The notes under the pieces are model-generated. The model was not told where the DNA came from. It saw only the letters and a list, made by a program, of their open reading frames with translations, and did no database searches. Positions 28,581 through 54,841 of a stretch of 64,000 nucleotides of DNA are shown here, one piece after another. The stretch comes from Aedes albopictus. Lineage: Eukaryota; Arthropoda; Insecta; Diptera; Culicidae. The stretch's first letter is position 1. Every line of letters begins with the position of its first letter. The translations under genes were made by a program, and so were the position numbers. The stretch spans positions 132,064,703-132,128,702 of the forward strand of contig NC_085137.1 of the NCBI RefSeq assembly GCF_035046485.1, given 5' to 3'.

Positions 28581-28589
28581 CGCGAACAA

Positions 28590-29437: not shown

Positions 29438-31170
29438 CACTATGGGCCAGAAATCAAAATTTCGCGACAAAATTCAAAAAAAGTTGTTTTTTTTTTAGAT
29501 CAATCAACTTTTATATATGTATGATTGTTTGGGCTATGTTTGATTGTATACCGACTGATTTTTTTGATTTGAAACAAAATTGTATCGTTTTTTGTACGGA
29601 GAAAATTCTTATAAGCGAAAATTCTCTTCAAGTTTAAATTACAATTTTACAATGTTTACTCAAATTGTACAGTTTATTTGCCAATGTGTAGTAGAAATAT
29701 TCGACCGTATTCGACATGCAACCGATCTAGGAAGCTAGTTGAGACTCTTCTTTTTCGGATGCTACCGGACTTTTTTGCGGGAATTTGCGGGAAACCAAGA
29801 TAGAATGATTTAAGCGCATGCGTTAATTTTACAATGTTTTACGCTGTGCTTCAATAACCATTCACTCTTAGATAGACTTTTGCGACGCAATCTCTTTATA
29901 GCTTGCGAAACAATACACATAGCCACATACTACTATTATTCTGGAAGGTTTCGTTTCAGGTAAGACTGTGATTGTAGACGTTTAAATCAATATCACACAC
30001 TTACTCAAAGTGCAAAGTTTCGATACATCAATTCGTATGATCAATTATGATTTTTAATAATCTCAATTTATGTATAGATGTCATGTATGTATAGTTTTTG
30101 GAGAAAAAATTCGCTGCTCAGGTGTTTTAGATGTCCGGCATTTGGCAGAATGCCACTTGGCCGAATTATGTTCAAAATAATTCAGAGGCCTTTTTTTCAC
30201 ATTCTAGCTGCCAATTTGATAATCATTAATTTTTCCTTCTTCCTTCCTCCAATCATTGACTATTCTTTCTTATTTTACAATTCTGGGATTAGCTGGCGTT
30301 AAAACTGTCAATATTTTATCAGAGATTTTTCCTCCTTTTAATCAAAGGGGATTATTTTGAGTTATACTGACGTGGTGAACAGTGGCACACGGTGTGTTGA
30401 AACAGGATTATTATCGCACTTTCATGAACCTAAAATATTTTTTCGTTATAAGTTAGCCTTAGCTGTATATATTTAGATTCTGGAGGTTAAAAAATCTTTC
30501 ATCGGGGAAAATGATAATAAATTCGATTTTAGTAGTTTACCTCTTTTCCCATATGATATGGTATTACGCGAATCTGATGAACCTAAACTCTGCATAGAAA
30601 AAGTCCCCTTTCTAATAATAAATTTGAAACCATTTAGAGAGAAACGAATGCAAAAGATTTTACAACGAGTTCAAATTAGTTTGGCGTTCGTTTCATGTGT
30701 CCAGCCTACTACAGTCTGCCGAAAGCAATAAATCATAAAAGTCTCCATTCCTTCAATTTGTCTGGCACATAGATATTTCTAATGGAGGTAAACAAATTCT
30801 TCCTATTAGTGCAACTCATACATTTGAGGAAGCACCATACACCTGTGGCTCGTACGATTTCTAGACGAACATTTGAAAAGAGCCTATCTGCTTTTTGTAA
30901 ACAAACATGTTTCTGTCTCTGTAGGGCCCATCTGCATTCACCCACGCACATCAACACCCTTAACAGATAGCTTGAAGAACACTGATTTCTGATAAGGGTG
31001 TTGATGTGCGTGAGTGGATTCAGATAGGCCCAACAGAGACAGAAACATGTTTGTTTACACAAAAAAGCTAGGCCCTTTTCAAATGTTCGTCTAGATTTGT
31101 AGCACTTCATGTGCTATTTTGCCTGAAATCGCGGGTATTAGTTGCACATACTTTGCATGTCAAACCACAT
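29438..31170 (+). repeat. left terminal inverted repeat of the 25.4 kb element
   Basis: The outer block, 29438 to about 29960, pairs with about 54220-54841. The inner block, about 30365-31170, pairs with 50300-50685, 52831-52946 and 53528-53600. The section between (about 29960-30365) is poorly matched. Similarity at the outermost 150 bp is high by eye, with scattered substitutions and small gaps. The arm carries its own hairpin insertion at 30861-31094, absent from the right arm. Confidence 0.8.
30861..31094. mobile_element. perfect-hairpin MITE in the left arm
   Basis: The 234 bp are almost entirely two ~103-bp inverted arms starting CTAGACGAACATTTGAAAAG, separated by about 28 bp. ATTT is duplicated on both sides (30857-30860, 31095-31098). 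The right arm of the big element (about 50370-50385) lacks it, which gives an empty site. No coding capacity. RNA from it would fold into a long stem. Confidence 0.85.
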
Positions 31171-31526
31171 CCACATCAGGATATTTGCCAAACATTATAA
31201 GTCGACTATACTGAGCGTGCGTTACTGATTTGTAAAAGTTCTGCCTCTGATCCGTTGAGGACTTTTGCTCATACAATATCTTAAAATTTTCAAAGGCTCA
31301 TTTCCTTGTTACTTATAAAACGATACCTTTATGGTTAAGTGGGCTGTTGAGTCTCAAATAACAAAAGTTGACACAAAATACATACGATTAGCGTTGTCAT
31401 ATTTTGTTAATGCATTCATAAATGATTATTAAACATTTGGTTTAAAATAAGGTACAACGGGGCAAGTTGAAACGGGTAAGGTTAGAAGAAACAGCGGGTT
31501 AACGCGATATTATCTACACGCAACCT

Positions 31527-31707
31527 ATATATATATCTGTATTAACGAGATTTTTAGCCCTAGGCTAGTTCATCTCGGGACCCACGCTTTACTTCCCTTC
31601 CGAAGGAAGAACTCACATTGCGAGTTTGTCGGGAGTGGGATTCGATCCCAGGTCCTCGGCGTGGTAGTCAAGTGTTCTAACCATCACACCAGGTCCGCTC
31701 CACCAAT
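31527..31707 (-). mobile_element. tRNA-derived SINE, copy D
   Basis: A 181-bp, near full-length copy of the family at 28041, again on the minus strand. An 11-bp duplication, ACACGCAACCT (31516-31526, 31708-31718), flanks it. The tail is TATATATA-like rather than pure poly-A. Confidence 0.9.
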
Positions 31708-31966
31708 ACACGCAACCTGAGATTGGCAGATTCTAATACAATTGGGTATGAAACATATACAAATATTGTATTAGGGCCTTGCAAATACAAAAATTGGTAG
31801 GTGGCAGTATACCAAGAATTGTATTGGCTTCCTAGAATCTGGAAAAGGAAAATTTCGCATGTGTGCGTGTGCTCTGTCGCACTGGTTTCTCATTATTTGT
31901 TCTATTTTTGGACTGATTATGGCAGCAGCGGCAGCATCAAATACCAATCCATGTTTAAAAAGTAAT

Positions 31967-32050
31967 ACGGGCGGCGGCGGGAATCGAACCGAGACACTAT
32001 TATGGTGTTACACAGTATCCTGCGCTCTAACCAGCACGGCTATAACTGCA
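31967..32050 (-). mobile_element. tRNA-like SINE head (third type)
   Basis: The minus strand reads a tRNA-like A box (TAGCCGTGCTGGTTAGAGC) and B box (GGTTCGATTCCCGCC) at normal spacing. The 3' side continues into AT-rich DNA. It lacks a matched acceptor stem, so a SINE head or tRNA relic is more likely than a gene. Confidence 0.5.
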
Positions 32051-32394
32051 CATGAATAGACAAGAGGCTGAAAGCCATTATGATCAACACAAACGTGGCT
32101 TGGTGATGGAAGTGATACAGCCGCCACACTGCAAAATGGGTCCAGAGCCGTATTTGCGAAGACAAAACTGTTTAAACTTCAGCTTTAAGTTTTTAGACAC
32201 ATATTGTGTTCTAAAAAGTTTATTTTCAATTGTTGACCCTATTCCCTATTATTGTTATGTTAGGGTGGTTCGTCTGGTTAAACTGATTCAAAAAACTGCT
32301 TTCTAATAATTTTATTTGCGATGCCATGATGGATGGTGATGGATCGTTTAATTAGAAATTCCACCAATAAACGGCAAATTCTAAATTTCATATA

Positions 32395-33990
32395 TCTCAG
32401 GACTCTCACCACTTAGAAAGTTGGTGTCTTCGACAACGTTGTTAAGTGAGTCAAGGGCTTACAGTTAATGGTCCACTAGGCGGCGCTAGTTACACATTAA
32501 CAAAATCATTCAAGTGTGTTGTTTATTCGTGAAGTAATCAACTAGCTGTAAGTTTGTTTTCTTTGAACGTGTCTAGGTCAAGTCAAAGGTTTTTCAAAGA
32601 GCTATGTATTAGTCATAATTGTGCAATGTCGCATTTCATTCGGTTCACTTGATCCAGAGATATAGCAATTAAACGAAGAACACTCAAATATTAACTACTT
32701 TATTAGAGTTGCTCCAATTGTATGTAAAGTTATCCAATCGAGCCCAAATTTGTACCGTTTATAGCTTACTAGTTGTGCAACTGGCAGGAAAAATTTGAGA
32801 ATATTTGGTGCATTTTTGAAAAAGTTACAGCTTGCTGAATATATTTGAAATAATAAATAAAAGTGGCATGCTTCAATTAATTCGTAACTAGCGCCGCCTA
32901 CTGACAGAACCTTGAACCAATCAGCTAATCAACTGAGCGGCCGTAACCAACCTAACAACATCGCCGAAGACATCAACTTTCTAAGTGATCTGAGTCCTGA
33001 GATATATGGAATATAATATTTGTTTGCTCACTAGCGCTACCTTGTGGTGGAATTTTGAATCAAACGGCTCATCATTTTTTAGTTCTTGACCAGCCAAATA
33101 ATATTGCCGAAGACACCAACTCTCTAAGTAACCAGGATGATGAGATATTTGGTATAAACATTTCATTAGTGTTACGTCTTTTTGTCTCTGGTATGACAGA
33201 TATCACAGACAGCAAGACGTAGCACTGGCGAAATTTCCATACCGTACATCTTAGCACCATGATTACTTAAATATTCGGTATACCGTTGTTAGGCCAGCCA
33301 AAGATTTAATTATTATATTCCATATATCTCAGGACTCTGATTACGTAGAAAGTTGGTTTCTTCGGCAATGTTGTTTGGTTTATTAAGGCGTTTCAGTTGA
33401 TTAGCTGATTGGTTCAGGATTCTGTCAGTAGACGGCGTTAGTTGTAAATTAGTAGAAGCATGTATCTTTTGCTTATTATCTCTAATATATTCAGCAACCT
33501 GTAACTTTCTATAATGTGTAGGGTATATTCTCAAATTTTATCTGCTAGTTGCACAACTAATTTGCTATAAATGGTACAAATTTGAGCTCAATTGGATAGT
33601 TTTACATGAAGTTGGAGCGACTCTAGTAAAATGTTTCATATTTGAGTGTTCTTCGTTAAACTGCTACATCTCTGGATTAAGTGAACCGAATGAAATGAAA
33701 TTTTGCACATTTATGACTAATATATAGCTCTTTGAAAAACCTTTGACTTGACTTAAATATGTTCAAAGAAAACTAAATTACAGTTTTTTGATTGCTTTAC
33801 GAAAAAAAAAACATTAATTTCCATAATTTTGCAAATGTGTAACTTGCGCTCCCTTGTGGCAAAATTTCGAAACAAGTGGACTATTAACTGTAAGTCCTTG
33901 ACCTACCAAACAACATTGTCAAAGACACCAACTTTGTAAGTGAACAGAATTCTGAGATACATTAAATTTAAAATTTGCTTGACCTCTAGC
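32395..33990. repeat. large fold-back repeat related to satellite-like units
   Basis: Two arms of about 620 bp (about 32395-33020 and 33310-33990) are inverted copies around a centre near 33165. Shared landmarks include ATATCTCAGGACTCT, AGAAAGTTGGT(G/T)TCTTCG, a GGCGGCG(C/T)TAGT box and TCGAGCCCAAATTTGTACC. The ends are not clearly defined and no TSD was found. The same boxes recur in the element at 38771-41327. Non-coding. Confidence 0.7.
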
Positions 33991-34009
33991 ACCGCCTAGT
34001 GGTATATAC

Positions 34010-34340
34010 AAAAGCATGCTAAGTTTTAAAAATTGACTAAAACATTTTTAGCAAGTTGTATCCTTTTATAAAGTCCACAAAAACTATACAAATTTTGATT
34101 ACTTGTTCCTCAACGAGTTTGATTTAATTGGTGCAAATTTGATTGATTATTCAACTTTACACGAAATTAGAGCCCTTCTATCTATATCTAGATTTTGACT
34201 TCCGTTTATCAAATTACTGTACCTTAGGACTAAGCGAACCGAATTAAATTAAATTTTGAAAGTTTGTGACTAATGTATTGGTCTTCATGTATCGTTGGAC
34301 TCGACTAAAATATGACCAAAGGCAAAAAAGTTACAATTTA
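34010..34340 (+). repeat. additional partial unit of the fold-back repeat
   Basis: A third, weaker copy of the arm sequence (TTGATTGATTATTCAACTTT, ACACGAAATTAGAGC, TAAGCGAACCGAATTAAAT) follows the palindrome in direct orientation with its right arm. Confidence 0.45.
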
Positions 34341-34382
34341 TTGAAAACTTTTCGAAAAGTTCTAATGATTCGAATGTTTTAT

Positions 34383-34427
34383 CCAAGGGTTCAGTCTCTT
34401 GAATAAAGACAAATCAATCAAATCAAT
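34383..34427 (+). mobile_element. 45-bp retrotransposed 3' end
   Basis: CCAAGGGTTCAGTCTCTTGA then ATAAAGACAAATCAATCAAA is only the terminus of the retroelement also seen at 10206 and 14296. A perfect 12-bp duplication, CGAATGTTTTAT, flanks it (34371-34382, 34428-34439). It is an extreme 5' truncation. Confidence 0.8.
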
Positions 34428-34918
34428 CGAATGTTTTATTTTTTGTAAATTTGCTATAAGGAACGGTAAAGGCTGGGTATGCTGCGCAATTCAGATCCCA
34501 TTGTGATCCACTAGCCTCTGCCCAGCAACTCCTATCCCTACCTCCACGCGGTACCGGCCGGAAACTATGAGCAACCTTAGGGAAGATCGGGTAACCAACC
34601 CCGGTGGGAACTTTGGTCATAGGCTGACAGGGAAGGGGGGGTTTGCTTCGGCAAACCTGAGCGTCTGTTCTCCAGGAGGAGCGGCTCACAACAGCGTCTG
34701 ATCCCCATGTTAGGGGCGGCTGATCTACGTCCGAGTGCCAGGGAGGGACTCTAAGCTCAACTGTGCACTATGGTCCTCCGGAAAGTAGGGGGTTGGTGTC
34801 AGGCCCTACGAGCCAGCCGTAAAAAACCATTGTTACGGAAAATCAGCAACAGAATAATACGAACCGAGACCAACGGCAACGACCCCAGCGAACAAAAAAG
34901 ACTTGCGATTGGAAACTC

Positions 34919-35545
34919 GGTACGTGGAACTGCCGATCTCTCAACTTCATTGGGAGCACCCGCATACTCGCCGATCTACTGAAGGACCGCGGGTTCGGCA
35001 TCGTAGCGCTGCAGGAGGTGTGTTGGACAGGATCCATGGTGCGAACGTTTAGAGGTAATCATACCATCTACCAGAGTTGCGGCAACACACGCGAGCTGGG
35101 AACAGCTTTCATCGTGATGGGTGATATGCAGAGGCGCGTGATCGGTTGGTGGCCGATCGACGAAAGAATGTGCAGGTTGAGGATCAAAGGCCGATTCTTC
35201 AACTTCAGCATAATAAACGTGCACAGCCCACACTCCGGAAGTACTGATGATGACAAGGACGCATTTTACGCGCAGCTCGAACGCGAGTACGATCGCTGCC
35301 CAAGCCACGACGTCAAGATCATCATAGGAGATTTGAACGCTCAGGTAGGCCAGGAGGAGGAATTCAGACCGACGATTGGTAAGTTCAGCGCCCACCAGCA
35401 GACGAACGAAAACGGCCTACGACTCATTGATTTCGCCGCCTCCAAAAATATGGCCATACGTAGCACCTTTTTCCAACACAGCTCCCTTATCGTTACACCT
35501 GGAGATCACCACAGCAGACGGAATCTCAAATCGACCACGTTCTGA
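34919..35545 (+). pseudogene. RTE-like endonuclease domain (first frame)
   Basis: Starts at GTWNCRSLN, the first motif of apurinic/apyrimidinic-like endonucleases. It continues through ADLLKDRGFGIVALQEV, INVHSPHSGSTDDDK, IIGDLNAQVGQ (catalytic Asp and Asn) and GLRLIDFAASKNMAI. The frame is open upstream without an obvious ATG, so I begin at the motif. A 1-2 base indel near 35525 shifts the frame, and the conserved QIDHVLIDGR...SDHYLV segment continues in the next frame. The domain nicks target DNA for reverse transcription. Apart from this indel it appears complete. Confidence 0.85.
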
Positions 35546-38115
35546 TTGACGGACGGCACTTCTCCGACATTATCGACGTCAGGACCTATCGTGGCGCCAA
35601 CATCGACTCCGACCACTATCTGGTGATGGTCAAACTGCGCCCAAAACTCTCCGTCATCAACAATGTACGGTACCGGCGACCGCCACGGTACAACCTAGAG
35701 CGATTGAAGCAAACGGATGTCGCCTCAGCATATGCGCAGAATCTCGAGGCCGCGTTGCCAGACGAGGGTGAGCTCGAAGAGGCCCCTCTAGAGGACTGCT
35801 GGAGTACAGTGAAAGCAGCCATCAACGACGCAGCCGAGAGCACCATCGGGTACGTGGAACGGAATCGACGGAACGAATGGTTCGACGAAGAGTGCAGAAT
35901 GGTTTTGGAGGAGAAGAATGCAGCGAGGGCGGTAATGCTGCAGCAAGGGACTCGACAGAACGTGGAACGTTATAAACAGAAGCGGAAACAGCAGACCCGC
36001 CTCTTTCGGGAGAAAAAGCGCCGCCTGGAAGAAGCGGAGTGTGAAGAAATGGAACTGCTGTGCCGTTCCCAAGAAACACGGAAGTTCTATCAGAAGCTCA
36101 ACGCATCCCGCAACGGCTTCGTGCCGCGAGCCGAAATATGCAGGGATAAAGACGGAGGCCTCTTGACGGACGGACGTGAGGTGATCGAAAGGTGGAAGCA
36201 GCACTTTGATCAGCACCTGAACGGCGTGGAGAACGTAGGCACGGGAGCCCACGGCAGCGGAGGAAACGACGACGCCAGTGCAGTGGAGGACGGAAATGAA
36301 CCAACTCCCACGCTGAGGGAAGTTAAGGATGCCATTCACCAGCTCAAAACCAACAAAGCAGCTGGTAAGGATGGTATCGCAGCTGATTTCATCAAGATGG
36401 GCCCAGAAAAGTTGGCCACCTGTCTGCATCGGCTGATAGTCAGGATCTGGGAAACCGAACAGCTACCGGAAGAGTGGAAGGAAAGGGTAATCTGCCCCAT
36501 TCACAAGAAAGGCGACCATTTGGAATGTGAGAACTTCAGGGCGATCACTATTTTGAATGCTGCCTACAAAGTGCTATCCCAGATCATCTTCCGTCGTCTG
36601 TCACCTAAAACGAATGAGTTCGTGGGAAGTTATCAAGCCGGCTTCATCGACGGCCGGTCGACAACGGACCAGATCTTTACCGTACGGCAAATCCTCCAGA
36701 AATGCCGTGAGTACCAGGTCCCAACGCATCACCTGTTCATCGACTTCAAAGCGGCATACGACAGTATCGACCGCGCAGAGCTATGGAGAATCATGGACGA
36801 AAACGGCTTTCCTGGGAAGCTGACTAGACTGATTAAAGCAACGATGGACGGTGTGCAAAACTGCGTAAGGGTTTCGGGTGAACTATCTAGTTCATTCGAA
36901 TCTCGCCGGGGACTGCGACAAGGTGATGGACTCTCATGCCTACTCTTCAACATCGATCTGGAAGGTGTGATGCGACGAGCCGGGCTCAACAGCCGGGGAA
37001 CGATTTTCACAAAATCCGGACAATTTGTGTGCTTTGCGGACGACATGGACATTATTGCCAGAACATTTGGAACGGTGGCAGAGCTGTACACCCGCCTGAA
37101 ACGCGAAGCAGCAAAGGTCGGACTGATGGTGAATGCTTCAAAAACAAAGTACATGCTGGTAGGCGGAACCGAAAACGACCGGATCCGTCTGGGTAGTAAT
37201 GTTACGATAGACGGGGATTCTTTCGAGGTGGTGGAGGAATTCGTCTACCTCGGATTCTTACTGACGGCTGACAACAACGTGAGCCGTGAAATTCGGAGGC
37301 GCATCATCAGTGGAAGTCGGGCCTACTACGGGCTCCAGAAGAAACTGCGGTCGAAAAAGATATACCCACGCACCAAATGCACCATGTCTCTCTCTCTCTT
37401 CTTGGCGTAACGTCCTCACTGGGACAAAGCCTGCTTCTCAGCTTAGTGTTCTATGAGCACTTCCACAGTTATTAACTGAGAGCTTCCTCTGCCAATGACC
37501 ATTTTGCATGCGTATATCGTGTGGCAGGCACGAAGATACTCTATGCCCAAGGAAGTCAAGGAAATTTCCTTTACGAAAAGATCCTGGACCGACCGGGAAT
37601 CGAACCCGTCACCCTCAGCATGGTCATGCTGAATACCCATGCGTTTACCGCCTCGGCTATATGGGCCCTGCACCATGTACAAAACGCTAATAAGACCGGT
37701 AATCCTCTACGGGCACGAGACATGGACCATGCTCGAGGAGGACCTGCAAGCACTCGGAGTTTTCGAGCGACGCGTGCTAAGGACGATCTTCGGCGGTGTG
37801 CAGGAGAACGGTGTGTGGCGGAGAAGAATGAACCACGAGCTCGCTGCACTTTACGGCGAACCCAGCATCCAGAAGGTGGCCAAAGCCGGAAGGATACGGT
37901 GGGCAGGGCATGTTGCAAGAATGCCGGACAACAACCCTGCAAAGCTGGTGTTTGCAACAGATCCGGTTGGCACAAGAAGGCGTGGAGCGCAGAGAGCACG
38001 ATGGGCGGACCAGGTGGAGCGTGATTTGGCGAGCATCGGGCGCGACCGAGGATGGAGAGCGGCAGCCACGAACCGTGTATTATGGAGAAATATTGTTGAT
38101 TCAGTTTTATCTTGA
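35534..38115 (+). pseudogene. RTE-like reverse transcriptase, split by a SINE
   Basis: The frame runs from the end of the endonuclease (QIDHVLIDGR) through a charged linker and WKQHFDQHLNG. It then enters the RT: TNKAAGKDGIAADFI, ITILNAAYKVLS, AGFIDGRSTTDQIF, motif A FIDFKAAYDSID, motif B RRGLRQGDGLSC and motif C FADDMDII with both catalytic aspartates. At 37378 a Feilai insertion introduces a stop (frame ends 37410). The remainder resumes at 37669 (YKTLIRPVILYGHETW) through a C-terminal region with RIRWAGHVARM and ends at a stop at 38113-38115. SINE plus duplication is 291 bp, so the outer frame is preserved. Confidence 0.9.
37388..37668 (-). mobile_element. Feilai SINE, full-length, inside RT
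   Basis: 281 bp. On the minus strand it starts GGGCCCATATAGCCGAGGCG (A box), has B box GGGTTCGATTCCC and ends in a GAGAGAGA-type tail. A perfect 10-bp duplication, TGCACCATGT, occurs at 37378-37387 and 37669-37678. It matches the tRNA-related Feilai family known from Aedes aegypti. It is the best preserved of three copies, and all three are on the minus strand. Confidence 0.9.
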
Positions 38116-38143
38116 ATTTGATGTAATACTAAATAAATGAATG

Positions 38144-38770
38144 AAATTTGCTATAACTTTGTAAAACATTCTGATATTGTATAGAGAATAATTAATCAGC
38201 AGATTTTTGGATAAGCCACACTTGATTGACCGAAAATCATTTCACAATAATGAAAAAAAAAGAAATGACAGAACTTGGCAGAAACATTTTTGTCTTCGTA
38301 AATACAACTCTAGACCCATTGTGCACTGAAAAGCCCGCATCCAGCAGGTTGCTGTTTGCAAGTGGAAAATTCCATGTAGACAATAGGACGCGAAGCTCAG
38401 CAGCGAAGCGAAAGTTATTTTTAGACGCAACCCGGTTCAACTTCTCGGGTTTGAATAGAAGTGTTTGTGTGGAGTGGTATGGAACCTGTGGGACCGTGTA
38501 GCGCATCTTAATATAACGAATGGATTATGATTTATCACATTTTCTGTACGTTTTTAATACATAAATTGGTAGAAAAGGCATATCTAAATTTTTGGTAGCT
38601 TTCCTTGTTTTGCGTGTAGTCATGATAAGCAATTTGAGTGTCAAAAGATTTTTAATTCAAACAATCATTTGGTCAAGGATAATTATACAAATTGTATTGA
38701 AATCTCTTTCAAAACCTCACAAGTTTTTAATAAGAATTTACCTTACCGAAGGCAACGCATGCTTAATATA
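38144..38770. other. interior of the 25.4 kb element, nothing recognised
   Basis: AT-rich DNA between the RTE-like element and the fold-back element. The short frames have no resemblance to Polinton proteins. Confidence 0.4.
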
Positions 38771-41327
38771 CAGTCGAGTCTCTTACTAAACGAATTCCTA
38801 TTAAACGGACTCCTATTAAACGAACTCCTACTAGACAGGGGTGAGCGTTATAGGAGACTAAGAGCTTATGGGATTTCGGCATTTTGGGGGTGTGGCCTAT
38901 TATCTCGGGTGTGTTAAGAGTTAACGCAATACTTTCTTCGGCAAAGTTTTAGGGCTTGATAAGATCTACCATTTAGAACTTTGGTTCATATGATTAGTTA
39001 GCAATTTGGCCGCTTGAGGGACCATCAACAACTTGATGCTAAATTGCATTACAGGAGCCATATTCGGTTGTCAAGCAAACGTTACGATATGCGACAGCTC
39101 AAGACCCTGATCATTTGGAAGGAGAGTGTCTTCGGGAAAGTTGTTGGGTACACCAAAAACTGACTGACGATGAGTTGCGAAGTTCGAAATTCCTCCACTG
39201 GGCGGCGCTAGTGAGCAAGTAAATTTTCAAAACCTCATATCTCAGAATCCCGATAACTTAGGAAGTTGGTGTCTTCGGCAAAGTTGATCAGTATGACATA
39301 AACTTACATAAAAATAAATACTTGTTTCGCAATTCTGCCACTAGGCGGCGCTAGTGAACATGCACATTTTAGAAATCTCATAGCTCAGAATACTGATAAC
39401 TTAAAAGGTTGGTGTTTTCAGCAAAGTTGATCAATATGACATAAACTTACATAAAAATAAACACTTGTTTCGCAATTCTGCCACTAGGCGGCGCTAGTTA
39501 ACATGCAAATTTTAGAAATCTCATAGCTCAGAATCCTGATAACTTAGAGAGTTGGTGTCTTCGGCAAAGTTGATCAGTATGACATAAACTTACATAAAAA
39601 TGAACACTTGTTTCAAAATTCTGCCACTAGGAGGCGCTAGTGAACTTCCAAATTTTAGAAATCTCATAGCTCAGAATCCTGATACTTAGGAAGTTGGTGT
39701 TTTCGGCAAAGTTGATCAGTATGACATAAACTTACATAAAAATAATCACTTGTTTCAAAATTCTGCCACTATGCGGCGTTTACTGCTTTTTTTCGTATTT
39801 TTTCGACTTTTTTGGGAGGTTTTCGGCTCAGCAAAACTAGTGTCGCTCCCCCCGATAACTTAGAAAGATGGTGGCTTTGGCAAAGTTGATCAGAATGACA
39901 TAAACTTACAAAAAGAAGAAACAATTGTTTTGCAATTCTTTAATTTTTAAATTCTTTTAATTCGTCTAGTAGTTTCAGCTGGCATACTCTTAAAAATTCC
40001 ACGGAGGATTCCTTTTGAGTCCGACTGACATCAAGGTATACAACTCATAAAATATGCATCCTGCCCAGGGGCAGAATTTCAAACCAAGTATATCATCAAT
40101 GAAGAATACAGTCTCTTCAAGATTGCAGAAATCTGAGCTATGAGATTTTCAAAATTTGCGTGATTACTGGTGCCACCTAGAGGTAGAATTCTGACACAAG
40201 TGTCTCATTGTGTGCAAGTCTATGTCATACTGATCAACTTTGCCGAAGACACCAACTTTCTATGTTATCAGGATTCTGAGCTATGAGATTTCTAAAATGT
40301 GTATGTTCACTAGCGCCGCCTAGTGGCAGAATTGCGAAACAAATGTTTATTTTTATATAAGTTTATGTCACTCTGATCAACTTTTCCAAAGACACCAACT
40401 TTCTAAGTTATCGGGGGAGCGATACTAGTTTTGCCAAGCCGAAAAACCACCAAAAAAGTCGAAAAAAGACGAATAAAACCGGTAAACGCCGCCTAGTGGC
40501 AGAATTGCGAAACAAATGTTTATTTTTATGTAAGTTTATGTCATACTGATCAACTTTGCCGAAAACACCAACTTCCTAAGTTATCAGAATTCTGAGCTAT
40601 GAGATTTCTAAAATTTTCATGTTCACTAGCGCCTCCTAGTGGCAGAATTTTGAAACAAGTTTTTATTTTTATGCAAGTTTATGTCATACTGATCAACTTT
40701 GCCGAAGACACCAACCTTTTAAGTTATCAGGATTCTGAGCTATGAAATTTCTAAAATTTGCATATTCACTAGCGCCGCCTAGTGGCAGAATTGCGAAACA
40801 AGTATTTATTTTTATGTAAGTTTATGTCATACTGATCAACTTTGCCGAAGACACCAACTTCCTAAGTTATCGGGATTCTGAGATATGAGGTTTTGAAAAT
40901 TTACTTGCTCACTAGCGCCGCCCAGTGGAGGAATTTCGAACTTCGCAACTCATCGTCAGTAAGTTATTGGCGTACCCAACAACTTTCCCGAAGACACTCT
41001 CCTTCCAAATGATCAGGGTCTTGAGCTGTCGCATATCGTAACGTTTGCTTGACAACCTGATATGGTTCCTGTAGTGCAATTTAGCATCAAATTGTTGATG
41101 GTCCCTCTAGCGGCCAAATTGCTAACTAATCATATGAACCAAAGTTCTAAATGGTAGATCTTATTAAGCCCTAAAACTTTGCCGAAGAAAGTATTGCGTT
41201 AACTCTTAACACACCCGAGATAATAGGCCACACCCCCAAAATGCCGAAATCCCATATGCTCTTAGTCTCCTATTAAGCGGATTCCTATTGCGCCCCCCGA
41301 CCAGTGATCTTATAAGATTCTCGACTG
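38771..41327. mobile_element. 2.56 kb TA-flanked fold-back transposon made of ~143-bp units
   Basis: The ends CAGTCGAGTCTC and GATTCTCGACTG are inverted, each next to a TA. A CGAACTCCTATTAAACGGA-type pogo/Tigger-like subterminus follows on the left. The whole body is a near-palindrome about 1.2 kb per arm. Each arm contains 4-5 direct copies of a ~143-bp unit, with GTTGGTGTCTTCGGCAAAG, GATCAGTATGACATAAAC and CTGCCACTAGGCGGCGCTAG as its boxes. There are left units from about 39260 and right units to about 40920. The outer arms are high identity, for example AACACACCCGAGATAATAGG. No transposase frame. Confidence 0.85.
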
Positions 41328-41329
41328 TA

Positions 41330-42100: not shown

Positions 42101-42102
42101 GT

Positions 42103-44822: not shown

Positions 44823-45371
44823 TTTTTTTTACTTTCATAAAATGTTGTTAAAGTTATTTTAGGAACGTTTTTTGTGCCATAGAAAATTTGTTTAAAGTAC
44901 AAAGAAACTTTAGGGACAAAGGATTATAACTTCATATATTTGTGGAAGCAAGAACGTGATTACGTTTATGTCTCTAAAACTTATTTGATTAGAATTGATA
45001 AGTAAAGTTGGACAATTTTATTTTGACTCGTTTGAAGACTCAACATAAATTTCCAGAAAACTGTTCAAGTTAAATTTCAGCATTTCAGAAGCAGCGTAAG
45101 TACCAGCCACGTTTTTTCGTTCAACGTAATGTTCATCTAATCTTCAACTGGACCATATTCTCAAAAATTTGTTTTTGGTGCACTTTCAACAGTAAAACAT
45201 GTTAGCATTGTGTACGTGGAAGTAACCTTTAACAGGAACTAAGGATATTACTGACGCTGTCACACTTTAAGATCCTTAAATGTATTCGATTGATTGCATA
45301 TTACTCGAATTACTCCACAATTCAAATGACTTGCTGTAAAATATGTTTCAAATATAAATTGGGGAAAATTA

Positions 45372-45766
45372 CACTCAGCGAAAAAAACTTGCGAAATTCA
45401 TCAAAATACCTTATGAAAATTTGCTATAACTAATTCTTATGGATGACATAAGCATACCTTATGACAATTGATCGTGCTTGCTATGACAAATTTTGTAAGA
45501 TAGACTTATAAAAAGAACAAAAAAAATCTTAAAACGATGCAGACCGGATTCGATCCATAAACGTCGGGATCACTGAGCCCGTGTTTTATCCACACGGCTA
45601 CCGACGCTTGAGAATACCATGTTGCTAAACATGAATAAAAGCCAAGCTGTGAGACGATTTACGTCATAGAGTGACCTTATGAAATTCATCCGAATCATTA
45701 TGAATTATTTATAGGCCGTTTTATAAGTTGGGCCTTATGGAAATCTTAAGGTTATTTGGCTGAGTG
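45372..45766. mobile_element. TA-flanked MITE (CACTCAGC ends) carrying a tRNA-like segment
   Basis: CACTCAGCGAAAAAAACTTG at the left and GGTTATTTGGCTGAGTG at the right, with a TA on each side. An inner inverted pair involves ACCTTATGA/TCATAAGG-type motifs. It is 395 bp and non-coding. A tRNA-like stretch is embedded near its centre. Confidence 0.7.
45535..45607 (-). pseudogene. tRNA-like sequence inside a MITE
   Basis: The minus strand reads CGTCGGTAGCCGTGTGGATA (A-box region), a long variable region, then GGATCGAATCCGG (B box). The acceptor stem is not well paired. It is best read as a captured tRNA or tRNA-derived SINE head. Confidence 0.45.
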
Positions 45767-46252
45767 TATGCCACTGTGTCCAATGATTTTACTTATTGTT
45801 TATGTAAAACGATAGTTGGGTGTTACATACTCCAAAAAAAGTCAATTTTGAAAAACCGGGAAAAGTTGAAAAATCGTACCGGGAAAACCGGGAAAAAGAC
45901 GGGAATTCCAAAACTGAAATTGAGTGGCCACCCTGATCAAGAACTGATGCCCACGTGCAACCCGATCTGACCTGCCCGCAAAGGAAGGGTATCACTACCC
46001 TTCAGGCCCTATCAGATGCACCCGTAGGTTGCAGACAGCAGGATCTCACCTACCCCGACCCTTGCCGGGGACCCCTTTCCAACCGCGGGCTCAGATCCAA
46101 CCCAGTAGACCGACGCCACGACAGCACCGCTACCGGGACTTCCTCTCCGCGGCCACTTAATCGCTGTAAGGGTCGATCTCGACCGCAGGGCACCGGTATG
46201 ACCTACGAAGCCGACTTCGAACCCCTGGACCACCTCTTGTACTGCATCTGGA

Positions 46253-47175
46253 CTAGCCATTCTCCGAGTCCACGCGCCACCTCCTCTGTAGCTCCCAGAC
46301 GATATGGGTGATAGCCGTTGAAACGGCATTCCAGCTAATCTCATCCCTACACATTCTCTGGACCAAGTTGTCCGGAGTTGTGTCCTCCCCGCATGTGGCA
46401 AGCATGCGGTCACGCATTGTGCGAAAACGTGGGCACACGAACAAAACGTGTTCCGCCGTTTCCTCTAAACCATTGCACACTGGGCATTCGGGAGAATCCG
46501 CATGCCCGAAACGGTGTAGATACTGTCGGAAGCAACCATGACCTGTAAGGACCTGTGTCAGGTGGAATGAAACTTCCCCATGGCGCCTATTAATCCAACT
46601 ATCTACCCTCGGTATCAACCTATGGGTCCACCTTCCTTTGGTGGAACTGTCCCACGCGCGCTGCCATTTGACCATAGAGGCCATCCTGACAGTCTTGCGT
46701 ATGCCTCTTGTGCCGCGCATTTCGAAGCACTCCATGTCCTCACTGATAAGAATGCTGATAGGCACCATACCAGTAATGACACAGAGAGCGTCGTGTGACA
46801 CGGTACGGTACGCGCTTGCAACCCTCAGACACATAAGCCTGTAAGTACTTTCCAGCTTCCGTCGGTAGCATTCAGTACTTAGCGCGGTACCCCACGCCGG
46901 GCCGCCATACCTAAGTATGGACGTAGCAACACTAGCCAGAAGCTTGCGCTTACTGGCGTACACCGCTGAGCTATTGGACATCATCCGGGACAGTGCCGCA
47001 ATAGCTGTGGAGGCTCTTTTACAGGCATAATCGACGTGGCTACCGAAGGTAAGCTTATCGTCGATCATCACGCCCAAGTGCTTGACAGAGCGCTTCGACA
47101 GGATAGTGCATTCTCCTACACTGATCTCCGTCTGCTGCGCCGACTGCTTGTTGTTAACAACCGTCACCTCTGTCT
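46253..47175 (-). pseudogene. R1-clade ORF2 C-terminal region (intact frame, 5'-truncated)
   Basis: An uninterrupted frame of 305 or more codons begins at the truncation point, so no true start exists. It covers the end of the RT/thumb (KHLGVMIDDKLTF, YGGPAWGTAL) and the connecting region. The C-terminal zinc finger CPVCNGLEETAEHVLFVC is of the form CX2CX8HX4C, characteristic of R1-clade ORF2. The RT catalytic aspartates are upstream and missing. The open frame with no stops suggests a young insertion. Confidence 0.85.
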
Positions 47176-47230
47176 TGTATGTGCGTGTGTGTGTATGTGT
47201 GTGTGTATGTGTGTGTGTGTGTATGTATGT
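47176..47230 (+). repeat. TG microsatellite
   Basis: (TG)n with TATG interruptions. It contains the R1 target duplication at its start and pairs, inverted, with the CA run at 48829-48885. Confidence 0.85.
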
Positions 47231-47457
47231 TACAAAAAAATGTCACTCACGGTTCTCAGCCGTCTGTTGACCGATTTGAGTTCTCTTGGAAGCAAATGAA
47301 AGCTACTACATCCTAGTAGAACGCTATTGAATTTTATTTTGATTGGACGTTCGGTTACCGAGATATCTTTCAAAGAGTGCTAGGGAGTAGTACAACTTAA
47401 TTATTTTAGATATTTTTGACAAAGTGTATCACCATAAATTTCTCAGCCGTCTATCAA

Positions 47458-48107
47458 CCGATTTAATCCACCTATGGTGAACAGAACCCTTCTTACACTT
47501 ATTAAAACTATTGTTGTATTATTTTATTTGTATTTAACATATTTATTTTGTGTGATGGACCAAAAGTTCTAGAAAATATCGTGGATTTGGCATCTAGTGG
47601 ATTGGTTTCCAAAATAGCATCATGGACCATGGACTAAACTACCAGAAATGCCAGACACCTCCTAGAATCTTGTATGCAATGTTTAAAAAATAGCTTACAT
47701 ATTCTGGAATATTGTATCTTTTGTTAACTGCCAAAAGATTTTGAATCGATTGACAATAGGGTAAGAAAATGAGCGAGATACATTTTGTCTAATATCTCTT
47801 AATCAGTCGATTAAATTAGCTCCGAAGTACTTGGTATTCGTGGTTATGGTGTAAAAAGGACAAAAATGATATATCTACTAAGTTAATCAGTTTTGGCAAT
47901 AGCTAGTTATTTTGGCTGTCCGGTTCTTGCATTTTTCCCGCAATATATAAATTCAAAGCTTTCATTTAACATATTGTTAGTTTTCATAAAATTCCTGTGT
48001 ATTTGTAATTTGTTATTTATAACTTTGTTGGAAACAATTACCTGCTAGTATACACTTTGTATGAGGACAGCATTATTTATTGAAAAATAATTTTCCATGG
48101 ACTGGAA
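47458..48107 (+). repeat. ~640-bp direct repeat, copy 2
   Basis: Matches 42312-42946 throughout. It forms the centre of the 42977-48958 element, entered at CCGATTTAATCC. The equivalent position in the flanking tandem unit reads CCGATTTGAGTTC. Confidence 0.85.
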
Positions 48108-48825
48108 TTTATTGAAATACTCTTCGTAAGATATCTCAGTAATCAAATGTCGAATCGAAATTTCAGGGCCTTATACAAGAATATTGTAGCTTTCATTTGG
48201 TGCTTAGAGAACCCAAATCAGATGACAGACGGCTGAGATATTTATTATGGTACTCTTGGTAAAAAATCTCTCAAAAAGTTAACCTGTATTATTCTCAAGT
48301 ACTCTTTGAAAGATATCTCGGTAACCAAATGTCCAATCCTAATGAAATTGTATAGGGTTCTACTAAAATGTTGTAGCTTTCATTTGGTGCCAGGATAACC
48401 AAAATCGGTTGACAGACGGCTAAGAAATTTATTATGATACACTTGGTCAAAAATCTCAAAAAGTTTAGTTGTATAAATCCTAAGTACTCTTCGAAAGATA
48501 TCTCTGTAACCAAATGTCCAATCGAAATAAAATTTCTGGGCGACCTACTAGGATGCTGTAGCTTTCATTCTGTGTCAAAAGAACTCAAATCAATTGACAA
48601 ACGGCCGAAATATTTATTATGATACACTTGGTCAAAAATCTTAAAAAGTTTAGATGTATGACTCAAAAGTACTCTTCGAGAGATATCTCGGTAACCAAAC
48701 GTCCAATCGAAAAAAAATTCAATAGCGTTCTACAAGGATGTAGTAGCTTTCATTTGCTTCCAAGAGAACTCAAATCGGTTGACAGACGGCTGAGAAACGT
48801 GCGTGACTTTTTTTTGTAACGCACA
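48107..48825 (+). repeat. four tandem ~184-bp units
   Basis: Units begin near 48117, 48297, 48482 and 48668 with TACTCTTCGAAAGATATCTC. Each carries TTGTAGCTTTCATTTGGTGC and TTGACAGACGGCTGAGA. The left arm of the same element (47231-47457) has one full unit and part of a second, inverted. Short open frames (48434, 48619) are unit artefacts. Confidence 0.85.
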
Positions 48826-48828
48826 TAC

Positions 48829-48885
48829 ACACACACACACATACACACATACACACATACACACACACACACATACAGACATTTG
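48829..48885 (+). repeat. CA microsatellite
   Basis: (CA)n with ATAC interruptions; the inverted counterpart of the TG run at 47176-47230. Confidence 0.85.
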
Positions 48886-49160
48886 CTCAGTTCGTCGAGC
48901 TGAGTTCATTGGTATATGAGACTCAGCCCTCCGGGCCTCGGATCGAAAGTCGGTTTTTCGAGCGATATTTATACCCTTCTTATGGGTGTAAGAAGGGTAA
49001 AAAGATTACATATGCTTACCTTGAAGTGCATCAAAAGAGTAATTAAAAGCTATTCTCTAAGGGCTGATTGCTTCACCTCGGATTAACCAGTAAACCAGGC
49101 TTACCCATATAGTTAAACCTGGTTTAACGCCAAAGCCAGGATGAAAAAATCGTCCATGTA

Positions 49161-50082
49161 CAGGGGATGGCCAAAATGTTTGGGATAGGCAACTTTTTTT
49201 TCTCTCACAAAAAAGTTCAGCATGCTATAACTTTTCATAGAGCGCATCAAAAAATCTCAAATTTTGACTGTTTGTCAACCTATTATATGTGCATCATTGG
49301 TACAAATTTGGGCTTGATTGATTAATATTTCGCAAAGTTAGAACCGTTCGGGTAAAACACCTTTTTTTAGACAACGCATTTTTGAGCTGTCATATCTCGG
49401 AAACCAGTTAACCGAATTGAATGAAATTTTGAACGTACACTAACAATATGTAAATGCTTCACAAACTATTAAAACATAGATACTTTTAAACGTTGAAAAA
49501 AGTTATCATGGATTGACACTTTTTGGACTTTTCTCGAAAAAATGTATTTTTTTTACATTAATGTGAATACATTTTAGTGTTGATATCCAAAGATTTTCCA
49601 CTTCTGTTCTCAAATTATCTCTAATCAGATATATTAGAGCCTATTTAGATTGAAGGAAAAACACATTTAATAATTTTTGTGTGGTATTGTTAATTTTACT
49701 TATTTTCTTCTATATGGGTAAAAATTTCAACCCGATATAACTTAATTCGCCGTAAGAAAATATTACATTTTATAACGTCGTATTGAGTATCAATATATTG
49801 TTGATAAACGTTAAAAAATTCATTCAATTTGGTTCACTGGTTTCCGAGTTATGACAGCTCAAATATGAGTTGTCTAAAAAATAGTGTTTTACGTGAACGG
49901 TTCTAACTTCGCGAAAAATTAATCAATCGAGCCCAAATTTGTACCAATGATGCACACAGAATAGATTGACAAACAGTCAAAATTTGAGATTTTTTGATGC
50001 ACTCTATGAAAAGTTACAGCATGTTGAATTTTTTTGTGGGAGAAAAAAAGTTGCCTATCCCAAACATTTTGGCCATCCCCTG
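49161..50082. mobile_element. TA-flanked fold-back element (CAGGGGATGGCCAAAATG ends)
   Basis: The ends CAGGGGATGGCCAAAATGTT are perfect inverted copies at the outermost ~20 bp, with a TA each side. Similarity continues inward over about 300 bp per arm, including GCATCATTGGTACAAATTTG and GAGCTGTCATATCTCGGAAA. Tc1/mariner-type by target and terminus. No transposase. A one-armed relative lies at 4938. Confidence 0.85.
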
Positions 50083-50685
50083 TATCTCCAACATGCGAAC
50101 AAAAATATTCATAGAATGAATTATCACTTGTTAGTGAAACATCGAGTCCTGCAAAATCAGAGCACAATGTATATAAAAGTTCCAATTATATTCGAAGCGC
50201 TATCAGTATTTAACAACTTAATTTACAGTTAAAATGAATGTTCAAAAATACGCGTGATTAGTCACCATAATTGTTGAATGATTTCGCAATCGTGTATCGT
50301 TACATGGTTTGGCATGCAAAGTATGTGCAGCTAATACCCACCATTTCAGGCAAATTAGCACATAAAGAGTATGTGCTGCAAATGGTACGAGTCACAGGTG
50401 TATGGTGCTTCCTCAAATGTATGAGTCGCACTAATGGGAAGTATTTGTTTACCTCCATTAGAAATATCTATGTGCCAGACAAATTGAAGGAATGTGGACT
50501 TTTATGATTTATGACTTTCGCCAGACTGTAGTGGGCTGGACACATGAAACGAACGCCAAACAAATTTGAACTCGTTGTAAAGATTTTTGCATTCTTTTTT
50601 TTTCTAAATGGTTTCAAATTTATTATTAGAAAGAGGGCTTTTTCTAGCGGAGTTTTGGTTCATCAGATTTCCGTAATACCATATT

Positions 50686-52830
50686 TTTTAGGTTTGCTCA
50701 CCATTCCAAAAGTGAGCAAACCTAAATCAGCGGAAGATTTCAGGAGGATAAGTCTTTGTAACGTTGTGTACAAACCGTACGCAAAATGGATTAGAAATAG
50801 GCTAAAAGAGTTTACAGGGAATCCGGAGTTACATCAGGCGGCATATACAGAAGGGAGATCAACAGATGATCAAGTGTTTATTGCGAGAAGAGTGATGGAC
50901 GAGTACTGGAATGCCGGTAAGACTTTATTTGTGGCATCAATAGACATTAAGAAAGCTTTTGATAATGTAAGTTTGGTTAAATTGAAGGACATTTTATTGG
51001 ATCTTGAAGTACCGACTCATTTAATAGATAGGGTCCTCCTTTGTATAAAAGAGGATAGCGCCAAGGTCAAGTGGGAAGGACAATTTTCGGAGACAGTAAA
51101 GCGGGGAAGAGGCATAAAGCAAGGGTGTCCTCTATCGCCGTTTCTCTTCAACTTAGTCATACAAAGCGTACTGAAAAAAGTAGCAGAAAGGGTCCCGAAT
51201 CTGAAGCTTATGGAAATAGGAGTGTTCCTGATACCACTAATTCTCGCTTTCGCAGATGATATTCTTATTATGGCGGAGGATCAAGACGAGTTGGAGAAAA
51301 TCATGGCAGCATTGGAGGAATGTTTAAAAGAGGTTGGTTTAGAGATAAACTGTAAGAAAAGTCAGATTCTTATAAGAATACCGAATGCTACCAAACCACC
51401 ACCAGACAAAATTATGCTGAATGGTAAGCAGTATGAAACATGTAGCTCGTTGAAGTACTTAGGTTTAATTTTGACTCGCAATTTGGATAGGCCAGCAACT
51501 ACTAGACAGAGGTCGGTAAATGCAGTTAGGTCAGCTAAAAACATAGTGCAATTTTGTAAATCCTTCAAACCTTCATGGGAGATTGGAAAACTTATTTATA
51601 AAACGGTCATATCTCCTGCAATGCTATATGGAACTAAGGTATCCACGCTTACAAAACGTAGCAGAAAGCAATTGGCGAAATACGAAAAACTTATACTGAA
51701 AGACATATGGAATAACTGTAGGGCAGTGAATAGGAAATTTAATGTCAGAAATGAGTTGGCAGGAAAGACAATCAACAGGAGAGTAAGAGTTGCTAGAATT
51801 AGCTATTATGGGCATATCATGAGAAGACCAAGAATGCATCCATTGAAATCAGCGTTAAAATTCAAATTTAATTTCAAAAAGGAAGGAAGACCGAGTTTCA
51901 CATGGAAGAATTCACTACAGCAAGATTTTGCAAGATATAGAGGAATGACAAACCATGACTGGAAAGAACTGGCAAAGGATAAAGAGAAACTGAAAAAGAA
52001 AGCAGAAGAAATTTATCGAGAGAATGACAGTGAAATTTCGAATGGAGAGGAAAGTGAATAGAAAATGGAACATGAAAGATTTTTTTTTTTTTTATTAAGT
52101 AATGGGGAGTTACAAATAAAATGTGTCCGATCAACAAATAATGCATTTTTTTACTTAAGGAATGAAGGAATGAAACGAGGGGAACTGAGAGTGATCATGT
52201 GATAGGGGAAGCGTACATAGTAGATATATTTAAAAAAAAAATATTAAAAATGTAGATTCCCATAAAGTAAGTAGATCTTATTGAGACAGCGCGGGAATGG
52301 AGGAATCTTATATTTGGAACATTGATTTTGACGCATTATGGCTGTAGGAATTTCGATTCAGAATATTTTGAACAGTAAGTTGTTATTTCGGGTTCCGAGA
52401 ATTTTATCGTTCAATGCTAGTTGTTTGACGTCAATAATAGCGATTAGTTTCAGCGGTGTTCAGGTAAATAAAGTTGTAATTGTTATATAGGTCAAATATA
52501 AAACAATATATCATAACAATAATTTTATTATTTCAGGTGGAATAAGGTAATTGATCAATTAAATTATATTTTTAATTATATGACACTTGGGATTTTGGGG
52601 GGGTAGCCTAAGGAAGTTAAATGAACTGGTTTCCGGGCAAATGTTCGTGGGGTGGCCAGACTTTGTCACGAGAAAGCAACCATTGTGTTGTTTTCCGAAG
52701 GTCTCCAGTGAATTTAGCTTACCCTGCTACAACAAACCATCAGGTAGATCATTCCCTTTAGGTTTGACTCTGCAGCCATAGGTAATCCTTGCGCTGATGG
52801 TGGGTACAAAATCATCATCATCATCATCAT
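50686..52830 (+). mobile_element. 5'-truncated non-LTR retrotransposon with TCA-repeat tail
   Basis: A 25-bp duplication beginning CATCAGATTTCCGTAATACC (50661-50685, 52831-52855) defines it. The left arm of the big element has one copy of the site (near 30562-30586), so this is a dated empty-site insertion. The 3' end is a (TCA)n run at 52812-52830 rather than poly-A. The 5' junction carries a 14-15 bp inverted duplication. Confidence 0.85.
50700..52061 (+). pseudogene. LINE reverse transcriptase, intact frame but 5'-truncated
   Basis: A single frame runs to a stop at 52059-52061; the apparent start upstream (50544) lies in unrelated arm sequence. The protein starts inside the RT (PKVSKPKSAEDFRRISLCNV). 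It has AYTEGRSTDDQVF, motif A ASIDIKKAFDNV, motif B GRGIKQGCPLSPFLF, motif C AFADDILIMAE with both aspartates, and a C-terminal RVARISYYGHIMRRP region. The endonuclease is missing. The lack of stops over 450 codons suggests recent insertion. The clade is not assigned; the FADD box and simple-repeat tail argue for an RTE- or R4-like group. Confidence 0.85.
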
Positions 52831-52946
52831 CATCAGATTTCCGTAATACCATATTATATGAGAAAAGTGGTAAACTACTAAAATCGAATTTATTTTAATT
52901 TTCCCCGATGAAAGATGTTTTAACCTCCAGAATCTTAATAAATATA

Positions 52947-53527
52947 CAGTATCGGACAATAAAAATGCACCAAAGCCGTTTTCCCATATAAACTAGTCAA
53001 CTTTGGATTGTCATATCTCAGTTATTTCTCAACCGATTGTTTTCGGCCTTTCTGTGACGAACTACAAAACACTTCAATTTTTGAAAACTATTGAAAAAAT
53101 TCGGTGATAACTTTTGATACAAAAGTTACAGATAGGTTGAATTTTGACAATAAAAATGCACCAAGACAAAAAATGCTATAGCAAAACATGGTCACGTCAT
53201 ATCATTATGGTGTCTTCGGTAAATATGTTTCTTGTGTGGTGATGAGTAAATTTGCTGAAGAGACCAACATGATTTGACTTCAGCATTTTTTGCTAAAAAA
53301 TATTTTGTCTTGGTGCATTTTTATTGTCAAAATTCAACCTATCTGTAATTTTTCTATCAATAGTTATCACCGAATTTTTTCAATAGTTTTCAAAAATTGA
53401 AATGTTTTGTAGCTCGTCACAGAAAGGCCGAAAACAATCGGTTGAGAAATAATTGAGATATGGCTATCGAAAGTTGACTAGTTTGTATGGAAAAACGGCT
53501 TTGGTGCATTTTTATTGTCCGATACTG
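52947..53527. mobile_element. 581-bp Tc1/mariner-type fold-back MITE
   Basis: Ends CAGTATCGGACAATAAAAAT and inverse, each next to a TA (52945-52946, 53528-53529). The arms pair over about 250 bp. The left arm of the big element (near 30462) has the uninterrupted site. Non-coding. Confidence 0.85.
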
Positions 53528-53781
53528 TAGCTGAGGCTAACTTATAACGAAAAAATATTTTAGGTTCATGAAAGTGCGTTAATAATCCTGTTTCAACACA
53601 CCGTGTGGCACGATCGTATATTTTTCAGCCAAACGGCATTCAGCCAAATGACTTGGAGTCGGCATTTGAACAATAAATTGTGTTCGCTCTTCGATCATAT
53701 CTACAAGTGGGATAGATATATTTGCGATTAGGGAAAATATTTTATTTTCCTTATAATATCTAAAATTCCGTGTCATTGATA

Positions 53782-53849
53782 GGCTCGGTAGCTAAGTCGG
53801 TAAAGCACTTGTTATAATAAGGGTCGTGAGTTAAAATCTCACTTGAGCT
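53782..53849 (+). pseudogene. tRNA-like sequence (Ile-type?)
   Basis: 68 nt with a 7-bp acceptor stem (GGCTCGG/TTGAGCT, three G-U pairs), a short D stem, and a perfect T arm, GTGAG-TTAAAAT-CTCAC. The anticodon stem does not pair properly, and the T loop lacks TTCGAAT. It reads most like a degenerate tRNA-Ile or SINE head. It is not a confident functional tRNA. Confidence 0.4.
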
Positions 53850-53892
53850 GTGGATTTGTTAATAATTGCACTAATAATATATCCATCTGTAC

Positions 53893-54079
53893 CATAGTTT
53901 CCCAAACTGTGGGTCGCGTCCCCTCAGGGGGGTCGCCGGCCTTCATCCAGGGGGTCTCGAGGGACAGTTGAATGATTTACTGCAACAGACAACAAATGAG
54001 GGAATTTCTATGGTGAGTCGCGATAAGTACGTCTGCTGGCAAAGGGGAGTCGTGCACCCGAAAAGTTTGGGAACCTATG
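53893..54079. mobile_element. 187-bp hAT MITE with perfect duplication
   Basis: Ends CATAGTTTCCCAAACT / AGTTTGGGAACCTATG. The 8-bp duplication ATCTGTAC at 53885-53892 and 54080-54087 fits the hAT nTnnnnAn rule. GGGTCGCG and GTCGTGCACCC lie near the two ends. Confidence 0.85.
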
Positions 54080-54841
54080 ATCTGTACATATGTATATACG
54101 TTGAGTTTATTCAAAATTCTAATTTTGATTGATATACCGAAACTTTGCACATTGAGTTAGTCTGTGGACTTGATTTAAAAGCCTAAAATCACATTTATAT
54201 TTGAAACAAAACCTTCCAGAATGTTGTTTGTTGCTTTGTATATTGTTTCGCAAACCATAAAGTCATAGCGTCGTAATGGCAAGAGCGGATGATTATTGAA
54301 GCACAGCGTGAAATATTGTAAAATTTAAGCAAGCACTAAAATCACTCTAACTTGGTTTCCCGCAAATTCCCGCAAAAAAGTCCGGTAGCATTCGAAAAAG
54401 AAGAGTCTAAACTTGCATTCTTGACCGGTTGCGTGTCGAATACGGTCGAATACTCCTACTTTTTGAACACATTGGCAAATAAACCGTAAAATTTGAGTAA
54501 ATATTGTAAAATTTATTTTTTTAACTTTAAAGCATCGCAATTTGTGCATCAAATATGCAAAATATACTAAATTTACTTTCAGGAAATGTATGCGTTATAT
54601 TTTTATAACACATTTTTCACCACAAATCACATTTTTCTTAATATTGGTTAAAATCGAGAATTTTCGCTCATAAGAAGTTTCTCCATACAAAAAACGATAC
54701 TATTTTGTTACAAATCGAAAAAATCAGTCAGTATATAATCAAACATAGCCTGAACAATCATACAAATATGAAAATTGATTGATCTTAGAAAAACAACTTT
54801 TTTGACTTTTGTCGCAAAATTTTGATTTCTGGCCCATAGTG

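Follow-up and report, generated by a model that had tools for sequence, protein, structure and literature searches.

A 25.4-kb inverted-end block in an R1 retrotransposon copy of Aedes albopictus is best explained as a nest of small, likely Transib-type transposons

Outer ends and insertion site in the R1 copy

We analysed a 64-kb stretch of contig NC_085137.1 of the mosquito Aedes albopictus (hereafter the window), in which a block of 25.4 kb with inverted ends (29438-54841) interrupts the second open reading frame (ORF2) of an R1-type retrotransposon. A sequence-only reading had taken the block for a single giant element making 6-bp target duplications, now non-coding, and had placed it in Maverick/Polinton, Transib, CACTA or an undescribed superfamily. 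Our comparisons argue very strongly that it is instead a nest of small elements: an outer transposon of about 2 kb, an inner one of about 2.94 kb and eight further insertions. The end sequence CACTATGGGCC occurs exactly at 29438 (plus strand) and 54841 (minus strand), and with one mismatch allowed it has four matches in the window against 0.46 expected from shuffles. Aligned to each other (first 660/770 bases), the outer arms share 549 identities in 635 aligned columns, so that the termini are inverted copies, as had been proposed.

The host is a decayed R1-type ORF2, whose endonuclease part and linker lie to the left of the insertion (28560-29431, plus strand) and whose continuation, recognised from the joined read and from R1 relatives, lies at 54848-55108 (plus strand). 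Both outer ends are directly flanked by CGTGCG (29432-29437 and 54842-54847, plus strand, the latter adjoining the right outer end), and the duplication therefore stands as far as its letters go. When the block and one CGTGCG are excised, ORF2 is joined in frame (...VLSRACDATMPRR..., residues LSRACDATMP). A protein search with the joined read yielded 74 R1 relatives, the named ones coming from Aedes albopictus, Armigeres and other mosquitoes; 72 of them align across the insertion point, 71 of the 72 ungapped there, and 53 of the 72 have the residues RA exactly at that point. The relatives thus agree with a single RA, the rejoining of ORF2 seen in the sequence-only reading is upheld, and a transposon did insert into an R1 ORF2 copy at this point of the window.

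Two families of short inverted-repeat elements

The outer family was sampled in the assembly of 1,344,132,971 bases (1494 contigs) by scoring 516 candidates with the 463-base left arm; the best 40 were kept, and the 39 besides the window were all fetched. For 33 of the 39 a second end was in reach, which gives elements of 1873-4064 bp, with a length of 2.0-2.3 kb in 20 cases. An exact 5-bp duplication flanks 30 of these 33 pairs and a 6-bp duplication none; the 30 duplications start with C in 27 cases and end with G or C in all. The 25-base outer end has 299 exact matches in the genome, against none for a backwards control, and no match in a scan of viral contigs. Among 100 listed places of the 299, 31 pairs of ends face inward at 1.9-11.8 kb, 25 of them at less than 3.4 kb. 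Left arms diverge from their majority by 3.6% on average (40 arms, window included), the window arm by 3.8%; for the right arms the mean of 5.5% over 33 is too high, owing to one or more faulty rows (largest divergence 58%), and we therefore rely on the left arms alone.

When family copies (for example L031 and L040) are aligned with the window, only 29438-30388 and 53605-54841 match as outer element. On L031, window position 30388 corresponds to 1159 and 53605 to 1153, so that both pieces meet with a 7-bp overlap. The left piece (29438-30387, plus strand, end CACTATGGGCCAGAAATC) accounts for about 950 of about 2000 bp and is 91.8-94.5% identical to copies L022, L031, L040 and L048. The right piece (53606-54841, plus strand, end ...GGCCCATAGTG) was delimited by alignment to family copies.

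What separates the two outer pieces is a second inverted-repeat element (30388-53605) with ends CACGGTGTGTTGAAAC and with TGGCA duplicated on both sides, at 30383-30387 in outer-element sequence and at 53606-53610 (both plus strand). Genome-wide scoring with the inner end gave 779 candidates, of which the best 40 form the inner family sample. Three full copies of it, about 3.13 kb (L068), 2.94 kb (L069) and 3.09 kb (L070) long, have arms near 545 bp. The eight window pieces between 30388 and 53605 are all matched by L069 (2943 bp), in the same order. These pieces, all on the plus strand, are 30388-30860 (left end CACGGTGTGTTGAAACAGG and inverted-repeat arm), 31105-31516 (matched by L069), 38617-38770 (L068, L069 and L070), 41328-42310 (L069 over 41328-41984 and 42054-42310, with 41985-42053 unaligned), 49035-49154, 50087-50685 (L069; including the inner part of the right inverted-repeat arm), 52830-52949 and 53529-53605 (right end ...GTTTCAACACACCGTG). 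Exact duplications of 5 bp occur in this family too: TGGCA in the window, CGCTA in L068, CGATG in L070 and CCCCC in L085/L086.

A single giant inverted-repeat element, Maverick/Polinton-like or of a new superfamily, would account for inverted ends that stand 25.4 kb apart between copies of CGTGCG, and the deeper inverted matches of the interior could be counted in its favour. Those matches, beyond about 0.95 kb from the outer ends, are however the nested second element, which has its own ends, its own duplication and its own family of about 3 kb, and the 33 other paired outer copies span only 1.9-4.1 kb. What the sequence-only reading had named as its refutation has largely come true: the repeat CACTATGGG recurs as short pairs of ends, each flanked by a 5-bp duplication of its own. 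Furthermore, a Pfam scan of the 10 larger open frames (7 of them inside the block) matched five, to reverse transcriptase, to endonuclease or, with a score under the cut-off, to zf-RVT, and none of the 10 encodes polymerase B or integrase, small frames not having been scanned. On the strength of the short pairs and of the separate ends of the inner element we reject the single giant element, whose probability we consider negligible. The genome search that the sequence-only reading had proposed, using the arms, did recover paired copies; they are short and carry 5-bp duplications, and no autonomous relative could be tied to their ends.

Several observations fit the nest of small elements less well. 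In the outer family, six of the 39 copies are unpaired within 4.0-4.4 kb, three of the 33 pairs have no exact duplication (two of the three by a single mismatch), and one neighbouring pair among the 100 listed places faces outward. In the inner family, L068 is opposite in orientation to the window, with most window pieces present, and L070 has one inverted segment and no match at 50087-50295. An exact 5-bp duplication is present in only three of the five other inner copies with both ends seen; of the remaining two, one has 4 bp only (GGCG) and one has none, together with a changed left end (a sixth copy, with no right end in the fetched pieces, stands outside this count). The nest nevertheless remains, in our judgement, close to certain.

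The 6-bp duplication had been read as a family trait, which the 33 other pairs contradict; CGTGCG is the sole 6-bp case among them and the window copy, and hence an oddity of the window's outer copy that carries little information on the class of the family. The restored reading frame is by itself no proof of a 6-bp duplication, because an identical empty site would follow if only 5 bp were duplicated and one base were added (GTGCG and a surplus C at the right side, or CGTGC and a surplus G at the left side). CGTGCG might accordingly stem either from a one-off 6-bp stagger or from a 5-bp duplication plus a single extra base at one of the junctions. A true 6-bp stagger, made by a transposase that tolerates 6 bp, would explain why the six letters are exact on both sides, starting with C and ending with G like most outer-family duplications. 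With no 6-bp case among the 33 other pairs, and with the 5-bp route leading to the same empty site, we give the true stagger an even chance; the nest is the same either way.

At one position in its interior the outer family also has a tRNA-like stretch (window 53782-53850, inside the right outer piece; 1390-1461 in L031). Rfam matches a tRNA there in the window and in nine of 10 outer copies scanned, and ARAGORN calls a tRNA in five of these 10 (four tRNA-Ala, one tRNA-Gly) and none in the window. In 23 sequences the stretch differs from the majority by 3.71%, compared with 3.71% and 3.43% in its surroundings; as it is no better conserved than these, we claim no function for it. An outer copy of 5.8 kb was considered as a possible autonomous copy and rejected: its inner 3.85 kb (L087) is family sequence broken by about 2.5 kb of foreign sequence, whose 636-aa open frame has transposase matches no better than E 0.49.

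Eight further insertions and the size of the block

Seven nested insertions split the 2.94-kb inner element into its eight pieces, and an eighth lies in the right outer piece. By hand sums of coordinates, 2003 bp of outer element, 2938 bp of inner element and 20,463 bp of insertions give the 25,404 bp of the block. The TA-flanked and the 8-bp hAT-like types below were named by eye from their ends. Insertion 1 (30861-31104, 244 bp) resembles a miniature inverted-repeat transposable element (MITE), with 30860-31095 self-inverted. Insertion 2 (31517-38616, 7.1 kb) has ends CACGCAA.../...TTGCGTG between TA dinucleotides and contains an inverted-repeat element (32374-34003) and a long interspersed nuclear element (LINE) with a drz-agam-1 ribozyme (34519-38115). 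Insertion 3 (38771-41327, 2.56 kb) has CAGTCGAG ends between TA dinucleotides, long arms and 143-bp tandem repeats. Insertion 4 (42311-49034, 6.7 kb) is a composite with a LINE frame at 46256-47242 (minus strand), R1-like by eye, and 185-bp tandem repeats at 48118-48797. Insertion 5 (49155-50086) is an inverted-repeat element of 0.93 kb with CAGGGGATGGCCAAAATG ends between TA. Insertion 6 (50686-52829, plus strand) is a LINE with reverse transcriptase, a 509-aa open frame read from 50532 and a target duplication of about 25-26 bp. Insertion 7 (52950-53528) is a MITE-like inverted-repeat element of about 0.58 kb with ends CAGTATCGGACAATAAAAATGCACC between TA, and insertion 8 (53897-54079, about 183 bp) looks like a hAT-like MITE, with the 8-bp ATCTGTAC on both sides.

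Some of these insertions have features of their own. The self-cleaving ribozyme drz-agam-1 (34519-34636, plus strand, 59 bits in Rfam) lies just upstream of a LINE endonuclease frame at 34823, which is its usual place in mosquito LINEs; it was also found near, and outside, the outer copies L031 and L044. The element at 38845-41278 has arms of 792 nt that are 95% complementary and consist mostly of 143-bp tandem units running in opposite directions, and units related to these repeats occur at 32884-34003 as well. The 6.7-kb insertion also contains a direct repeat of about 650 bp, whose two copies (42312-42941 and 47458-48105) share 90.6% identity and stand 5.1 kb apart.

The sequence shows three layers of events. 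A non-autonomous inverted-repeat transposon of about 2 kb, with end CACTATGGGCC, entered the R1 copy; a second one of about 2.94 kb, with end CACGGTGTGTTGAAAC, entered near the middle of the first, duplicating TGGCA; and eight more insertions (MITE-like elements, LINEs and tandem-repeat elements, 20.5 kb altogether) moved the ends to a distance of 25.4 kb. Both transposons were probably mobilised in trans, through cut-and-paste, by a RAG1-like transposase of the Transib type that acts on ends with a CAC heptamer and cuts with a stagger of 5 bp. Selfish transposition and later decay would suffice, with no further function needed. We regard this full explanation, the nest together with Transib-type mobilisation in trans, as probable.

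Likely affiliation with Transib

Both families are likely, though not proven, to be non-autonomous Transib elements. The Transib end consensus is CACWATGG. The end heptamer is CACTATGG in the outer family (one copy CACCATGG) and CACGGTG in the inner one (one copy CGCGGTG), and Transib fits best, since the ends start with CAC, their heptamers read CACTATG and CACGGTG, and most duplications have 5 bp. In passages of PMC4411706, PMC7204232 and PMC8355894, 5-bp duplications and a conserved CAC are given for Transib and RAG-like elements. The closest likeness is to non-autonomous Transib elements, among them the Anopheles gambiae N elements (named in a legend of PMC8355894). Shared with these are ends resembling a CAC heptamer, duplications that mostly have 5 bp, the lack of a transposase of their own and a host genome with Transib transposase. 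In addition, the outer end has, by eye, a nonamer ACAAAATTC resembling that of a recombination signal sequence 22 bases after CACTATG, a spacing within the 20-22 bp spacers that a figure legend of PMC8355894 gives for symmetric Transib ends. Our families differ in that their arms measure about 0.5-1 kb, the analysis yielded no autonomous copy bearing their ends and the window copy has 6 bp, not 5. ProtoRAG/RAGL elements share CAC ends and 5-bp duplications (passages of PMC7204232), but neither family matches Transib/RAG1-like transposase queries (RAG2L was not searched for).

Candidates for the transposase are at hand in the genome, where pieces of the locus L071 (C3:96520800-96526800) match 6pqn with E 1.8e-24 and 6.5e-18. 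6pqn is deposited as a DNA-mediated transposase, and we take it to be the structure of an insect Transib transposase. The first L071 piece also weakly matches RAG1 chains, and a RAG1 family search of the genome gave one weak match, below cut-off, at the same locus (17.2 bits, E 0.71). With 148 genome-wide matches to the L071 transposase piece, we conclude from sequence similarity that a Transib transposase is present in this genome. L071 itself is a decayed gene for a Transib transposase, broken up into several open pieces; neither CACWATGG nor CACGGTG was found within 6 kb of L071 sequence, which has one CACTATG-type site (minus strand, 5954-5960).

The link between this transposase and the two families meets several difficulties. 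Tblastn with 10 transposase queries on 43 sequences found no transposase gene or remnant in either family (best E 0.19; hAT not searched), which agrees with the earlier view of the element as now non-coding. At least 188 kb separate each of the 80 transposase places compared (out of 148) from all 40 outer and 40 inner arm places. Comparison of the families with eight transposase 3' flanks and with L071 brought out no common end, only stretches of 12-33 bases (best E 0.005). In addition, the arms, at 0.5-1 kb, are longer than is usual in Transib elements.

Some matches to the C-terminal piece of the Transib transposase form outward-facing inverted pairs about 2.8 kb apart (e.g., C3:289598226-289601323, C1:177555298-177558399, C2:146781673-146784761, C1:247112373-247115477 and C2:340854022-340857125), which suggests Transib derivatives whose long arms take in the transposase gene's 3' end. 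A broader idea, which we put forward tentatively and hold to be rather doubtful, is that several Transib-type lineages with very long inverted arms are widespread in this mosquito genome without coding capacity, as the 299 exact matches to the outer end would illustrate, and that their transposase at times makes 6-bp instead of 5-bp duplications.

If the families belonged to another group with 5-bp duplications, e.g., hAT5, the nest would be unchanged. hAT ends usually differ from CAC-type ends, which speaks against such a placement. That hAT families with 5-bp duplications exist is stated in PMC12730594; the duplication length of the outer family would fit, and no transposase is tied to the ends of either family. 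Against this, a CAC start marks RAG and Transib elements in the passages cited above, and the genome is rich in Transib transposase (148 matches), so that we think membership in hAT5 or a similar group unlikely and continue to prefer Transib.

Among the groups named earlier, Transib thus holds up as the likely one, and nothing was found that points to Maverick/Polinton, CACTA or an undescribed superfamily; no new superfamily is needed. Maverick/Polinton elements are large, have long inverted repeats and make 6-bp duplications, and the block resembles them in its long inverted repeats, the distance between its ends and the 6 bp of the window copy; its elements, however, are short once the nesting is removed, and their duplications have 5 bp. 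CACTA/EnSpm elements share the CACTA start, but their duplications have 2-3 bp, not 5. Transib elements have been reported in mosquitoes generally (passages of PMC7728395 and PMC3442997). Neither family was recognised in the portions searched of the open-licence PMC literature, which does not include Repbase, and we therefore regard them as two families of a known kind for which no description was found there.

The locus gives two ordered layers, a Transib-like element in a Transib-like element in R1, and its striking size of 25.4 kb is due to this nesting. Through nested insertions a transposon of 2 kb can come to resemble a new class of giant element 25 kb long, and searching the genome with the arms decides between the two. 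For Aedes albopictus, it leaves two long-arm families whose transposase partner may be sought among the many Transib copies of the mosquito.

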